Assembly (NCBI RefSeq): GCF_004944975.1
Contig: NZ_SPQG01000007.1
Location: forward strand, 25,360-89,359
Source: Halorhabdus amylolytica
GTDB lineage: Archaea > Halobacteriota > Halobacteria > Halobacteriales > Haloarculaceae
Reading direction: 5' to 3'
DNA: 64,000 nucleotides
Shown: piece after piece, positions 21,685 through 35,333 of the stretch
Layout of the letters: every line of letters starts with the position of its first letter
How positions within the stretch are numbered: position 1 is the first letter of the stretch
The notes under the pieces: model-generated
Database searches by the model: none
The model's input: the letters and a program-made list of their open reading frames with translations, nothing else
What the model was told of the DNA's origin: nothing
Program-made: the position numbers and the translations under genes

Positions 21685-21705
21685 GGACGTAGGCGATCCT
21701 CTCCT

Positions 21706-22134
21706 TCGAATCGCCCTCCATAGTAATTCGGCGCGGCGCGAACATGCGCCGCGCACGGACTCACGGCTCGCCTCGCTCGCCGTTCGCAAAATCGAGGTTT
21801 CACGTTCGTTCGACCTCGCCATGCGAGGGAGGGGATTCGAACCGAAATCAGACGGTCGGCCTCACTTCGTTCGGCCGCTGCGACTGATAGGCTTCGAATC
21901 GCCCTCATGTTGATTCGGCGCGGCGCGAACATGCGCTGCGCACTCGCTCGCGGTTCGTTTCACTCACCGCTCGCAAAATCGAGGTTTCACGTTCGTTCGA
22001 CCTCGCCATGCGAGGGAGGGGATTCGAACCACGGTCGCTCCCGTTCGCTCGTTGTACTCGCTCACCTCCCGCTCTCTGATTCGAATCGCCCTCCATAGTA
22101 ATTCGGCGCGGCGCGAACATGCGCCGCGCACTCA
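21706..22134. repeat. Tandem repeats carrying copies of the tRNA-Leu 3' end
   Basis: This is non-coding. The 22-base 3' end of tRNA-Leu (real copy at 22135-22156) recurs at 21822-21843 and 22009-22030 in the same orientation. A second repeated block contains a 9-bp perfect stem, gcgcggcgc/gcgccgcgc, at 21731-21754 and 22106-22129, with a one-base variant near 21918-21941. A third shared block (cacgttcgttcgacctcgcc) precedes the first two tRNA-end copies. The periodicity is about 187 and 126 bases. Such structure is expected from repeated integration and loss of elements at the tRNA attachment site, or from local duplication. Confidence 0.75.
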
Positions 22135-22217
22135 TGCGAGGGAGGGGATTCGAACCCCTGGACCCCTTCGGGAGCGGGTCTTAAGCCCGCCGCCTTTGGC
22201 CGCTCAGCCACCCTCGC
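22135..22217 (-). tRNA. tRNA-Leu (anticodon UAA)
   Basis: The 83-base minus-strand sequence folds as a class II tRNA. Its acceptor strand GCGAGGG pairs with CCCTCGC; the D-loop is GGCTGAGCGGCC; the anticodon stem is GCGGG/CCCGC around loop CTTAAGA, giving anticodon UAA; it has a long variable arm (CTCCCGAAGGGGTC) and the T-arm AGGGGTTCGAATCCCCT. The discriminator is A and CCA is not encoded. No intron is present. Its 3' end is copied twice downstream. Confidence 0.95.
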
Positions 22218-28382: not shown

Positions 28383-28386
28383 ATGA
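28315..28386 (+). CDS. Possible 23-residue leader ORF overlapping nrdJ
   Basis: A short frame (MTRTDTRTTGRSDEQPSGRG then VEQ) begins with ATG at 28315 and ends in TGA at 28384-28386, overlapping the nrdJ ATG as ATGA. The overlap is the same type that links the trp genes, which makes coupled translation plausible. The peptide is basic and Thr-rich, with no recognised family, and could be a chance frame. Confidence 0.3.
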   Translation: MTRTDTRTTGRSDEQPSGRGVEQ

Positions 28387-31300
28387 GCGACGCCGACCTG
28401 GGCGTCGACGAGGTGACGCTGCCGATCAAGCGCACCGAGGGCGAGACGCTCACCGACCGGCTCACCGACAACGCCTATCACAACATTCTGCCGGCACGGT
28501 ACCTCCGGAAGGACGCCGACGGTGAACTCGTCGAGGATCAGGAGGACCTTTTCGAGCGCGTCGCAAAGAACATCGCCCTGGCCGAGGCCGTCTACGAAGC
28601 TCGAAACGAGGACGTCGAGATCACCGTCACGCCCGAGCAGCTCAAGCCCGATCATCCACGGCGCGACGAGCTCGCCGAGGAAGTATTCGGGAAGGGAACC
28701 ACGGTGACTGACGACGCCGAGACGACCCTCTCGATCTACAACGTCAACAAGTTCGCCTACGAGACGGTCGTGCCCGAACTCCCGCCGGCCGTCCGCGAGC
28801 ACGTCGAGGACACCGCCGCGGAGTTCCGGACGCTGATGGGAGATCTTTCTTTCATGCCGAACTCTCCTACATTAATGAATGCCGGCGACGAACTCCAGCA
28901 ACTATCTGCCTGTTTCGTCGATAGCCCCGAAGACGACATTGATGACATTCATCAGACAGCAAAAGAAGCCGCACAGGTTTTCCAGTGTCTGACAGAAGAC
29001 ACGACCGTTACCGTCGAGGGAAAAGGCGTCGTTTCCATCGCTGATGTCGAGCCCGGTGATCGGATCGTCCAGCGCGACGGCGACGATCATCGCGTCCAGA
29101 ATGTTGACGAGACCCACGCCTACGACGATTCACCGGTCAAGCGCGTCGAAACGAAGGCCGGTGTGGAACTGACGGGGACGCCGAACCACGAGCTGCTCGT
29201 TGGGGAGGACTGGACGCGCATCGACGAGATCGAACCCGGGGACGCGCTCTCGCTTCGACTCGGCTGGATCGACGGTGCGAACGAGACTCCCGAACTCACG
29301 ACCGTCGCCGGCGGTGCGCAGTGGGCCGAGAACCGTACTGTTTCGAACGACGACGTCCTCGAGCTGTATGCCGATGGACTCAGCGACTACGAAATCGCCG
29401 AGCGACTCGACAGTTCGGCCTCGACGATCCAGCGCCGGCGCTCGCTCGAACTCGGTCTGGATCCGAACGGCAGCGGCGGACGTCCCGGCGGGAGCGTGAG
29501 TTTCGACGAGAGCGAATTCGAGACGCTCTATGAGGACGGTCACTCCGACGGTGAGATCGCCCGGGAACTCGGCGTTTCGACCCGGAGCGTGGCCCGGTAC
29601 CGCGAGAACCAGTCGATCGAATCCAACGGTGAGGCCGTCACGGTCGTCGACCAACCGACCGAATTGACGCCGGACCTGGCCGAACTTGTCGGGATGTGGG
29701 TCGGCGACGGTTCGAAACACGAAGACGGGATCCGATTTCATCTCAATCGCGAGGAGACGCTCGAACGCGCCGATCGACTTGCCCGCGATCTCTTCGACGT
29801 CGGTCTCGACTGGCGCTGGGACGAAGGCTGTTACGACGCTGTCGTCCACAGCCACGAGGTCAAACGCTGGTGGCTTGCGAACTTCGGAGATGCCAAGCCC
29901 GACGCGACATCGGCATCCGTTCCGGAATCGGTCTGGAAGGCGGACCGCGAGACGATCGGTGCATTCCTCCGGGGACTGTACTCGACCGACGGCAGCCTCC
30001 AGAAAGACGTCTATCCACGGCTGTGGAGTTCCTCGGAGGATCTGATCGAGGGTGTCCAGCAGTTGCTTCTCGGTCTCGGCATCCCTGCAATCAACTGGGA
30101 GTACGATACCGAAGATCGTGATTACTTCAACGTCGGGCCGACCGGCGAACGCGGACTCGAACAGTTCAGCAATCTGGTCGGATTCGTCGACTCCCGGTCG
30201 GAGACGATGGCAGAGACGCTCGCCTCGATCGACTCGGAGGGGCCGAGCGTCGGCACGCTCGACGGTTCGACGTGGCACGTCCCCGTCGAAGCCGTCGAGG
30301 ACGCAGGAACGGCTACCGTCTACGACGTGACCGTCGCCGATAATCACGAGTACGTGGCAAGTTCGGTCGTCTCGCACAACAGCGGTGGCGGAATGGGCTA
30401 TGCATTCTGGCGATTACGGCCCTATGGAGATGCTGTCGGCTCGACGGGAGGAATTGCTTCTGGTCCGATTACGTTCATGCGGACTTTCGACCAGATGTGT
30501 GAGACGATTGCCCAGGGTGGTGCCCGACGGGGTGCCCAGATGGGGGTCATGCGGATCTCCCATCCGGACGCCATCCAGTTCATCCACGCCAAGAACAAGG
30601 ACGTCTCCCTCGCTCATACCCTTCGGCTGAACGACCCTGATGACTTCACGCACACCTCTTTTGCCGACGCCTTAGAGGAAGCACGAGAGTTGATCGACGA
30701 CGAGGGTCGTGTGCCCGAACACCTCCGCAACGCCGTCGAGGGGCATCTCTCGAATTTCAACATCTCAGTGGGTGTCACCGACGACTTTATGGAGGCCCTG
30801 CAGAACGGCGAGGAGTTCACCTTCACGAACCCCCGAACCGGCGAGGCTCACATCGTCACCGAGGAAACCAAAGAACTGTACGACATGTTCGGCCTCGGCG
30901 AGTACGTCACGGTCGGCGAGGAGCTGTCCGTGCCCGCCGAGGAACTCTGGGACGACATCGTCGAAGGTGCCCACGAGAACGGCGAACCCGGCGTGATCTA
31001 TCTAGAGCGCGTCAACAAGGAACACTCCTTCGACGTCGAGGCCGAACCTGACCACCAGATCCTCGCGACCAACCCGTGTGTCACCGGTGACACGCTCATC
31101 AGTACCGAAAACGGGCTCGTCCCGGCCGAAGAACTGTACGAGCACGGTGTCGCACAGGATGTCGTCGTCGACGGTCGGTTGAGCGAGGATCGAGTCAAGG
31201 AGGCCAGTAGCGTCTTCAAGACCGGCGAGAAGGACGTCTACGAACTCACAACCGAGGAAGGATACGAACTCCGACTCACTGCTGACCATCGCGTGATGAC

Positions 31301-34300
31301 CGACGATGGCTGGATCGAAGCGCAGAACCTCGAACCCGGAGATACTGTTCACGTCCAAAACCAGAAGGGCGAGTTCGGTCAACACGGGTCGGCCGAAGAG
31401 GGTCGCGTCCTCGGCTGGCTCGTCGGTGACGGCCATCTCAAGCACGGCGAGGAACGTGCAGTACTGAACTTCTACGACGAAGATGCGACCGTTTCCGAGC
31501 AGTTCGCCGACGACGTGAACGAGATCGTTCGCGAACCACTCGGAAACGCCGACTACGAGGTCGGCGTCAGCGACATCAGTCGGAGTGACGACTATCGAGG
31601 TGCCCAGGCACTCGAACAGCGCATTCGGTCGGCACGTCTCTACGAGTACGCCGAGGAGACTGGACTTATCGAGGAGAAACTGCAGGTTCCGGACGCCGTC
31701 ATGCGTGGCAGTGAAGAGATGGCTCGTGGATTCCTGCGAGCACTGTTCAGTGCCGACGGGAGCGTACAGGGCGACGTCGAGAAGGGGGTCTCCGTGCGAC
31801 TGGCGAGCGTCGACGCCGGTTTCCTCACAGACGTGCAGCGATTGCTTCTCAACTTCGGCATCGCCAGCAAAGTCTACGAGGACCGGAAAGAGCCGGGGAC
31901 AGTCGAACTACCCGACGGTACCGGCGACACAGCCGAGTACGAGACTGAAGGGTTCCATGAACTCGTTGTCGTCAAGGACAACCTCGTTCGCTTCGCCGAG
32001 GAGGTCGGATTCCTGCTGGACAGCAAAGACGAGACCCTTGCGGAGCGACTCGCAGAGTACGACCGGGGCCCGTACAGCGAGCGCTTCGAGGCGACGGTCG
32101 AATCAGTCGAGTTCGACGGACACGAAGCCGTCTACGACCTGACGGAGCCGGACACGCACTCGTTCATCGCGAACGGGCTCGTCTGTCACAACTGTGGTGA
32201 GCAACCCTTGGAGGAGTACGAGGCCTGTAACCTCGGGCACATCAATCTCTCGACGGTCGCCGACACGGACGCGCCGGACTGGCGCGTCTGGTCTGACCGC
32301 CACGCTGAGGACTATGCGGACTTCGAGGATGCGATCGATGCCTACCTCGAAGAAGCGATCGACTTCGAGGAACTCGACCATCGTATCGCGATGGGGACGC
32401 GGTTCCTCGAAAACGTCGTCACGATGTCGGATTTCCCGGTCGACGAGATCGAGGAGAAAGTCCGGCACATGCGCAAGATCGGGCTGGGCATCATGGGCCT
32501 GGCGCAGCTGTACATCCAGCTCGGCGTCAAATACGGCAGCGAGGAGGCCGACGAGATCGCTCGGCAGGTCATGCAGCACATCAACTACGAGTCCAAATGG
32601 ACGAGTCACGAGCTCGCCGAGGAACGCGGCTCCTTCGCGGAGTGGGACGATTCGAAGTACGCCGATCCCACGGAATATAGCGAGTGGTTCGAGCATTACG
32701 TCGGCGAGGATGCAGAGGACTGGGCAGATGGCTTCCCCATCCGCAACCACAACACGACGACGATCGCTCCCACTGGCTGCGTGGAGGAGAGTTCCCTCAT
32801 CTCGACTGACGAGGGGCTCGTCCCGATCGAGGACCTTGACGAGACGACTGCGGAGTTCCAGCAGTGGGACGAGATTGACGTCGGTGTTGCGACCGATGGC
32901 GGCACGAAAGCTGCGACCGCCATTTATGACAATGGGTTCACATATGTCCGGAAAATCGAAACCGAGGGCGGATTTAGCGTTGCTTCGACGCCGGACCATC
33001 GGTTCAGAACACTCACCGAAGATGGCGAGTACGCATGGAAAGAGGCCGGCGAGTTCGAACCTGGCGACAGGATTTTGCTTCAACGGAACACCTTCGAAGG
33101 CGGAACCAGGGCCACACTGGACACGAGCGAACGGGACAACTACCATCACAACACGGACGACGATCTGACGCTCCCGGAGGAGATGACGCCGGAACTGTCC
33201 GAGTTCCTCGGATACTTCATGGGCGACGGCTACGTTCACGACGAGGTTGGAGTGAAAGTCGTCGTCGAGTCCGACGCGACAGAGCTCGATGAACATCTTC
33301 GCGAACTCGGTCGGTCCCTGTTCGGAGTCGCTCCGACTGTCGAGGACCAGGATACCCGGCACACGCTCACGTTTGGGGGCCGACACCTGTCGCGATATTT
33401 CGAGGACAACGGCTGGAAGAAGGCACCGGGCAATGAAGGGCAAGGGGCTGCAAGCGCCTTCGTCCCGGACGAGGTCCTCAGCGGTGACGAACCGGTCGCG
33501 AAAGCGTTCCTCAGAGGTCTATTCGAGGCTGATGGGACTGCATCGCGGAAGGTCGAGCTGTCAACGGTGTCAGCGACGCTCGCCGAAGAAGTCCAGACGC
33601 TACTGTTGTCGCTTGGCTGTGTCTTCGTCCAGGACGTGCTCGAAACCGAAGACATGGACGACCACTACGGAGACCGGCCGCGACACAGCGTGCGTGGAGC
33701 CAACAGGCGCGAAGACGCACGATTTATCGACGAGATTGGATTTATCACCAAGTCCACGGAGTTCGATCTCGGGCCACAGTCGTACAAGAACGACACGTAC
33801 CCACCGGAGATAGTCGAAACGCTTCGGGCCGTCGACGGATACGATTCGGTGAGCAAGCCGGTCAAGAAACGAGTCAATCAGTCTCCGATTAACGGGGCTG
33901 TGAGTCGAAAACTCGTCAAAGACGTCGAGACCGAGACCGACCAGGTCGTCAGGGTCGCCGGTCGTCGTCTCACCGATTTCTATGCAGCGACGGTCGGGTC
34001 CGTCACCGAAGAGAAAGCCTACACCAAAGACATCAGTGTCCCATCGAACAACACGTACGTCGCCAATGGATTCGTTACCCACAACACCACCTCGATGGTC
34101 GGGAATACGACAGGAGGTTGCGAGCCCGTCTACAACGTCGCGTACTACAAGAACGTCTCCGACGACGTCCAGGGCGACGAAATGCTCGTTGAGTTCGACG
34201 ATTACTTCCTTCGGGTCTTAGAGGAGAACGACATCGACGTCGAGGCCGTCAAGCGGGAGGCCCAGGAACAGATGGCCGACAACGCCTTCGACGGCGTCGA

Positions 34301-35333
34301 AGGGCTCTCGACGGTGCCCGACGCCATCGGCGAACTGTTCGTCACGACCGGCGATCTCTCGCCGAAACAGCATGCCTCGATCCAGTGTGCCCTGCAAGAC
34401 GGCGTGGACTCGGCAATTTCAAAAACCGTCAACGCCCCCAACGATTCGACGCTCGGGGACGCAAAAGATGTCTTCGAGTACATCTACGAACACGGTGGCA
34501 AGGGCGTCACCTACTACCGCGACGGCACCCGGAGCAAGCAGGTGCTGACCACGCGGGCCGAGAACACCGACTTCGCGGACATGGACGAGGACGAGGCCGC
34601 CGAGACGATCGTCGAGCGCATCGACGAGGTCTTCGGCGGGCTGGAGGGGTTCCTCGACAACGAGGACGTTCGCGAGCGACTCACGGCCGACATCGAGGAG
34701 CTACTGGACGGGGACACCGCCCGGCAGTACGCCGAGAAGAAACCCCGCCCCGATCAGCTTCACGGCGTCACCCAGCGTATCGAGACGGGCTACGGCAAAC
34801 TGTACGTGACGATCAACGAGGACCCCAAGACCGGCGAACCGTTCGAGCTGTTCGCCAACACGGGTCATTCGGGCGGGTTCACCAACTCATTCACCGATGC
34901 GCTCGCGAAGACCATCTCCGTCGCGTTGCGCTCGGGGGTCGATCCCGACGAGATCGTCGACAAGCTCCAGGGCATTCGGTCGCCGAAGGTCGCCTGGGAC
35001 AAGGGCGAGCAGATCAACTCCATCCCGGACGCCTTCGGAACGGCTCTGCGGCGGTATCTCGACGACGAGATCGACCGGACCTATCCCCAGCAGCGCACCT
35101 TAGAGGAGACAGCTGACGAAGATCTCACTGCGGAAGAACAGGCTGCCCGGTCACGTTCGGAGGACCGATCGACCGACGGCGGTTCGACCGCCACGGAGTC
35201 GACCATGGTTGACGATCAACAGGACATCATCGCCAACGGTGAGAGTCCCGAATGTCCCGAATGTGGCTCGATGTCGCTGTACTACTCTGAGGGCTGTAAG
35301 ACCTGCGAGTCCTGTGGCTGGTCGGAATGTTGA
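28383..35333 (+). CDS. nrdJ: Class II ribonucleotide reductase with three inteins
   Basis: NrdJ reduces ribonucleotides to deoxyribonucleotides using adenosylcobalamin. The precursor is 2,316 residues; removing inteins of 465, 372 and 436 leaves an enzyme of 1,043. Extein motifs include [12 protein letters not shown], the redox Cys in [13 protein letters not shown], the active-site [20 protein letters not shown], and [20 protein letters not shown]. A C-terminal zinc ribbon ([22 protein letters not shown]) follows. Intein 2 separates P and C within NPCGE and intein 3 interrupts APTGT, so no activity is possible before splicing. Each insertion site is at a conserved catalytic sequence. It may be translationally coupled to a leader ORF. 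Confidence 0.96.
   Translation: [2316 protein letters not shown]
28986..30380 (+). other. Intein 1 of NrdJ (465 residues, LAGLIDADG, with HTH motifs)
   Basis: It starts at Cys202 ([20 protein letters not shown]) and ends SSVVSHN before Ser667. Splicing block B is [13 protein letters not shown] and block F is [15 protein letters not shown]. Two [9 protein letters not shown]-type motifs, [13 protein letters not shown] and [13 protein letters not shown], indicate a homing endonuclease. Between block B and the endonuclease are two extra segments like resolvase helix-turn-helix motifs, [20 protein letters not shown] and [20 protein letters not shown]. These may add DNA recognition. Key Cys, His and Asn are intact. 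Confidence 0.92.
31077..32192 (+). other. Intein 2 of NrdJ (372 residues, inside the NPCGE active-site motif)
   Basis: It starts at Cys899 ([20 protein letters not shown]) and ends ANGLVCHN before Cys1271. Block B is [17 protein letters not shown] and block F is [25 protein letters not shown]-type motifs are [11 protein letters not shown] and [12 protein letters not shown]. The upstream extein ends ATNP and the downstream one begins CGEQPL, so the intein sits between Pro and the active-site Cys. All splicing residues are present. Confidence 0.92.
32778..34085 (+). other. Intein 3 of NrdJ (436 residues, inside APTG-TTS)
   Basis: It starts at Cys1466 ([20 protein letters not shown]) and ends ANGFVTHN before Thr1902. 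Block B is [14 protein letters not shown] and block F includes [23 protein letters not shown]-type motifs are [15 protein letters not shown] and [14 protein letters not shown], so the endonuclease looks intact. The downstream residue is Thr rather than Ser or Cys, which is allowed. The region between the endonuclease and block F is longer than in intein 2. Confidence 0.92.

Follow-up and report, generated by a model that had tools for sequence, protein, structure and literature searches.

The tRNA-Leu(TAA) locus and its downstream array

The window that we analyzed, a stretch of 64,000 nucleotides from the haloarchaeon Halorhabdus amylolytica (assembly GCF_004944975.1, contig NZ_SPQG01000007.1, positions 25,360 to 89,359), contains on its minus strand a tRNA-Leu(TAA) gene, which is followed by two complete repeat units and one partial unit (Table 1). 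Each complete unit ends in an exact 22-nt copy of the 3' end of the tRNA (GGTTCGAATCCCCTCCCTCGCA read on the minus strand), such that with the tRNA itself this sequence occurs three times. Before each copy lie, in order, a spacer with a hairpin, an inverted copy of the T-loop half of the tRNA and a 49-nt inner segment. The flanks of the copies are likewise shared: a 125-nt block is repeated at 89% identity, and a 58-nt block holding a hairpin occurs three times, the third time in the partial unit, which has the spacer hairpin and the inverted arm but neither an inner segment nor a tail copy. A sequence-only reading of this locus had noted the three exact 22-base copies, the hairpins and the long shared flanks between them, and this observation is confirmed by our analysis. 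It had, however, missed the inverted T-loop arm in each unit and the recurrence of the arrangement at other tRNAs. Elsewhere in the window (28383-35333, plus strand) we found a 2316-aa ribonucleotide-reductase-like ORF whose translation shows, on inspection by eye, three intein-like insertions.

Table 1. Features of the array downstream of tRNA-Leu(TAA), in coordinates of the window
Coordinates	Strand	Feature	Remarks
22135..22217	-	tRNA-Leu(TAA)	predicted by ARAGORN and Rfam RF00005; positions 54-73 = 22135-22154
22009..22134	-	complete unit 1 (126 nt)	spacer hairpin, inverted arm, inner hairpin, tRNA 3'-end copy
22106..22129	-	spacer hairpin of unit 1	perfect 9-bp stem
22080..22094	-	inverted copy of the tRNA T-loop/T-stem half, unit 1	2 of 12 mismatches
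22031..22079	-	inner segment of unit 1 (49 nt)	orthologous inner segment in locus L041
22009..22030	-	direct copy 1 of tRNA 3' end	positions 52-73, exact
21822..22008	-	complete unit 2 (187 nt)	
21918..21941	-	spacer hairpin of unit 2	
21893..21908	-	inverted arm of unit 2	
21844..21892	-	inner segment of unit 2 (49 nt)	..CAGTCGCAGC..GACCGTCTG.. family
21822..21843	-	direct copy 2 of tRNA 3' end	exact
21705..21821 (about)	-	partial third unit	no inner segment or tRNA copy
21731..21754	-	spacer hairpin of the partial unit	
21705..21720	-	inverted arm of the partial unit	

Distribution of the units

To determine whether this arrangement is local we sampled tRNA genes and searched within 900 nt downstream of each for a copy of its own tail at no more than 4 of 20 mismatches. 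In the same genome 21 of 43 tRNAs (33 copies) have such a copy, each with its own tRNA's tail, whereas 0 of 43 have one upstream and 0 of 43 have one with a shuffled core, which excludes chance. Of the tRNA-Leu(TAA) orthologs in relatives 18 of 29 carry copies, with 0 to 4 per locus and differing unit types. A sample of two further genomes of the order Halobacteriales gave 7 of 32; among the loci inspected these are in one genome (G113), with none in the 15 tRNAs inspected of the other (G043), indicating that the units are not universal in the order. Two genomes outside the order gave 0 of 29, with 2 upstream hits in the control. A signature pattern, GGATTTGAA-N20-50-GTTCAAATCC, occurs in 64 of 392 genomes of the phylum, namely 64 of 81 in the order and 0 of 311 outside it, and the reversed control pattern occurs in none.

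In a scan of named genomes with this type of pattern 80 of 117 stretches were examined: 62 are haloarchaeal by title and 18 are others. Of 68 haloarchaeal sites (counting locus L318, titled only "Euryarchaeota archaeon", as haloarchaeal) 63 have a tRNA just upstream on the same strand, and the remaining 5 lie at or near locus or contig ends; all 10 distinct listed sites of the genome under study also have a tRNA just upstream. Of the 18 others, two Woesearchaeota loci (L298, L308) also lie behind tRNAs. In those two genomes (G428, G429) 4 of 30 sampled tRNAs carry tail copies, some with the same inverted-arm hairpin and with GA hairpins of the haloarchaeal type in a 43-46% G+C background. Searches of phage and plasmid collections gave no match to the array. 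Searches of viral contigs reported 24 and 104 stretches, and most of those scanned were phage tRNA genes overlapping the pattern, terminal inverted repeats or chance matches. A single genuine unit was recovered, behind a tRNA-Glu on an IMG/VR contig (L137:13744-13909), near the end of the stretch examined. In the window, Rfam searches at gathering scores matched only tRNA; in five unit loci searched to E<=1 there was no RtT hit and no plausible family, the sub-threshold hits being CRISPR repeats, SRP and two tRNA-overlapping matches. The CRISPR matches (CRISPR-DR60) mark a CRISPR-like array with a period of about 73 nt, which begins a few hundred nt behind the tRNA-Val(TAC) unit (L004:1882-3006; G000:C21, about 71740 onward). 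The units of the arrays behind tRNA-Ser, -Lys and -Gly of the genome under study (L002, L013, L024) contain runs of N, which are perhaps assembly gaps caused by the repeats or masked stretches.

Conserved architecture and predicted structure

A comparison of the units showed that: 1) The tail copy has sharp ends. In 113 first copies, identity to the tRNA is 85% at position 52, 94-100% from G53 to N73 and mostly 30-50% outside; the identity of the core is conditioned by the search but that of the flanks is not, and this set includes loci recovered by the palindrome pattern, the two Woesearchaeota loci and one Bifidobacterium locus (L338). 2) The inverted arm is complementary to positions 54-63, with mismatches rising in the outer three positions (90, 80 and 48 of 160). 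In the tRNA-sampled subset, which like the tRNA samples above is free of the pattern choice, 51 of 71 copies have an arm with no more than 2 of 9 mismatches, against 56 of 710 shuffles. 3) Both arm and tail follow the neighboring tRNA. Where neither the acceptor part nor agreement between arm and tail was required, the acceptor part of the tail matches the local tRNA at <=3 of 11 mismatches in 60 of 65 sites (including the two Woesearchaeota loci), versus 88 of 1257 comparisons with other tRNAs, and base 57 of the arm agrees with the tRNA in 61 of 65. A tail carried over from another tRNA, as in a simple IS605-style right end, is thereby rejected. 4) The median unit is 123 nt, too short for genes.

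The inverted and direct copies pair, so that the tRNA-sense strand is predicted to fold into one long imperfect hairpin. This strand is the more stable one in 128 of 160 units with DNA parameters and in 134 of 160 with RNA parameters. Likewise, hairpins with tandem-GA/GNA loops number 101 on the sense strand and 9 on the antisense strand, in a pool with some sequences counted twice; such GA motifs are especially stable in DNA. A subfamily of 57 units shares the motif xGWCGC...CGTCT. In 56 of these, two positions of stem 2 vary freely yet remain Watson-Crick in 53 and 52, with no G.T pair in the 112 cells, and a T.T mismatch is retained in 40. In 20 members chosen by us from the 57, 22 pairs are predicted, of which 7 show changes on both sides; 38 cells are changed on both sides against a shuffled mean of 8.4, 98.4% of cells pair versus 89.3% in shuffles, and no slid version exceeds 55.8%. 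The stems therefore covary, but whether the folded form is RNA or single-stranded DNA is not settled by these data, since in A1 G.T cells (13) outnumber A.C cells (2), and in the arm the changes giving a sense G.T (71 of 791) exceed those giving A.C (46 of 1129), thereby favoring sense wobble.

Turnover of the arrays

The units turn over. At tRNA-Leu(TAA) the genome under study and a relative (G006) share the same two inner segments in the same order but with different spacers, while three other relatives (G003, G008 and G025) have other units. Distal tails are more diverged than proximal ones in 34 pairs, less so in 7 and equal in 35. Blocks are also duplicated, as seen in the A-B-A-B' order in locus L042 and in locus L399, where units 2-3 are repeated as 4-5. 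In G113 an identical core, GGATTTGAA-inner-TTCAAATCC, sits behind Pro-tgg and Ser-tga with different spacers and with tails that follow each tRNA (2 and 0 mismatches, respectively), whereas Val-cac and Val-gac of the genome under study share a whole identical unit. Hence, joints lie at the T-loop core and modules reassort, as is also seen for spacer and inner segments within the genus of the genomes G045 and G113, and transposition of whole units as the only process is rejected. In one case, behind tRNA-Phe (L089), the inner segment is inverted relative to the tRNA between the two inverted T-loop arms, suggesting that inversion is possible but rare.

Comparison with integrase elements and other repeats

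The sequence-only reading had interpreted the copies as a stack of attachment-site scars from integration and excision, or as products of unequal crossing over, without any remaining integrase; this interpretation is supported only in part. We examined 30 integrase loci from 8 genomes, drawn from a longer list of places with PF00589 genes. The elements directly behind tRNAs (L243, L246, L251, L265) and the attR-like tails (L253, L261) lack the inverted arm and the hairpin, and integrase elements sit beside, not in, the units. In L261 a unit lies beyond the attR of the element, and L256 and L270 look alike, although there the presence of the matching tRNA at the other end is inferred. Attachment-site scars are thus not supported as the origin, whereas the block duplications support unequal exchange as a contributor to array growth. 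The outcome that had been set in advance as speaking against the scar reading, namely all relatives being alike, was not observed, as the orthologous loci carry 0 to 4 copies.

We then compared the units with previously described systems: 1) The E. coli tyrT/tyrV repeats (RttR RNA, tpr) have the same plan. The tyrT locus of K-12, the single E. coli locus examined, has three near-identical 178-nt units behind tRNA-Tyr, annotated as the small RNA RttR, each ending in the tRNA tail. We find that each also has an inverted arm (best 12-nt arm with 2 mismatches in all three), with a 10-nt exact inverted match in the unit tested that is reached by 4 of 5000 shuffles, and GA-type hairpins on the sense strand. 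The copied tail, however, starts at position ~58 and includes CCA. 2) Integron attC sites, and cassette arrays without integrase (CALIN), share an imperfect hairpin between inverted half-sites, organization in arrays, apparent proximal insertion and a joint at G|TT. They differ in that our units have no cassette genes, no integron integrase has been linked to them, the half-site is the tRNA T-loop and the core consensus is distinct. 3) REP/REPIN and PATE-type repeats are short, gene-less, single-strand hairpin elements, and PATEs occur in haloarchaea (PMC3119063). In REP/IS605-derived elements the hairpin is recognized by a Y1 transposase and a guide pairs with the cleavage site. The pairing of arm and tail in our units would fit such a guide, but the units are bound to tRNA 3' flanks and carry a local tRNA tail, and no IS605-type end has been shown. 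4) The tRNA attachment sites of SNJ2-like and other archaeal integrase elements share the direct repeat of the tRNA 3' end (PMC8371274), but have no inverted arm or hairpin at the att ends examined. 5) In Methanopyrus a 10-bp palindrome lies downstream of about half of the tRNAs (PMC5217627), but it is short and without a tRNA tail copy. Our literature searches (see also PMC9668308), in which most subscription papers were out of reach, showed no description of the haloarchaeal units.

Possible origin and function of the units

The above observations indicate that the array is one case of a haloarchaea-wide family of gene-less repeat units directly behind tRNA genes, each of the form [spacer hairpin][inverted copy of tRNA positions ~54-63][inner hairpin][direct copy of positions 53-73]. 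This descriptive class is secure: the architecture, the pairing of the inverted and direct copies, the dependence of arm and tail on the local tRNA, the recurrence of inner segments at different tRNAs and the turnover of arrays are all shown by the sequences. The mechanism is not secure, and mobility, recognition by a recombinase and, in the rival view, transcription and release of the units as RNA are inferred. We tentatively favor, at somewhat less than even confidence, the view that the units are non-autonomous mobile or recombinogenic elements whose folded tRNA-sense single strand would be recognized by a recombinase that joins at the T-loop core (G53|T54), in the way integron integrases use folded attC sites or Y1 transposases use REP hairpins. 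In this view the inverted arm would act as the target-matching part, and tandem growth would afterwards proceed by unequal exchange between tail copies. The sharp ends, the restriction to tRNA 3' flanks, the covariation, the strand bias, the movement of inner modules and the greater divergence of distal copies favor this proposal. However, no recombinase or transposase was linked to the units, only one genuine unit came from viral contigs and none from the phage and plasmid collections, and the reassortment of spacer and inner segments implies that units do not move only as wholes. The G.T excess in A1 would also be given by RNA folding, and tRNAs with units have fewer downstream T-runs (TTTT within 60 nt in 7 of 43 versus 12 of 29, the tRNAs compared being partly orthologs of one gene and hence not independent), which suits a transcribed hairpin.

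A role at the RNA level is a strong rival, albeit one that we consider rather doubtful on present evidence. Here the units would be transcribed as trailers of the tRNA and folded, terminated or processed into small RNAs at the tRNA-like tails, as reported for the E. coli tyrT/rttR repeats. The better folding of the sense strand with RNA parameters, the sense wobble in the arm, the scarcity of T-runs and the shared plan of the tyrT units are consistent with this. Against it, half of the tRNAs have no units, orthologs carry 0 to 4 copies, the two freely varying positions of stem 2 have no G.T pair, and no Rfam family other than tRNA matches the array in the window, nor a plausible one the five unit loci. 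A neutral origin, in which the near-palindromic T-loop sequence shared by all tRNAs acts as a joint for template switching, gene conversion and unequal exchange, and quasi-palindrome correction keeps the arms complementary, appears less likely still. It would account for joints at the T-loop core, the reassortment, the block duplications and T-loop differences that track the local tRNA. However, the conserved internal loops (T.T mismatch in 40 of 56), the GA/GNA tips and the fixed orientation are not expected of neutral joints, and the units are restricted to Halobacteriales within the phylum, although every genome has T-loops. Scars of tyrosine-integrase elements are very unlikely: although the copies start at the T-loop and end exactly at position 73, as integrase att duplications do, and integrase elements do use these tRNAs, the att ends lack the inverted arm and inner hairpin, a unit lies beyond the attR in L261, and the units are only about 123 nt.

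A more speculative possibility, which we regard as unlikely but not excluded, is that the units are minimal tRNA-guided mobile elements. The inverted arm would be a guide that pairs with the T-loop of the target tRNA gene, the folded sense strand would be the substrate, and a hypothetical recombinase would insert the element behind that tRNA while duplicating positions 53-73; the E. coli tyrT repeats would then be a bacterial outpost of the same architecture. Irrespective of mechanism, about half of the tRNA genes in this genome carry these units and most haloarchaeal genomes examined have them, in what looks like an overlooked family of small spreading DNA elements rather than scars left by viruses. 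They offer an account of many apparent "att scars" and tRNA fragments behind haloarchaeal tRNAs without invoking lost viruses, and provide an archaeal counterpart, with many natural variants, to the old puzzle of the E. coli tyrT repeats. If the inverted arm proves to be a guide, a new target-programmable element would become testable.
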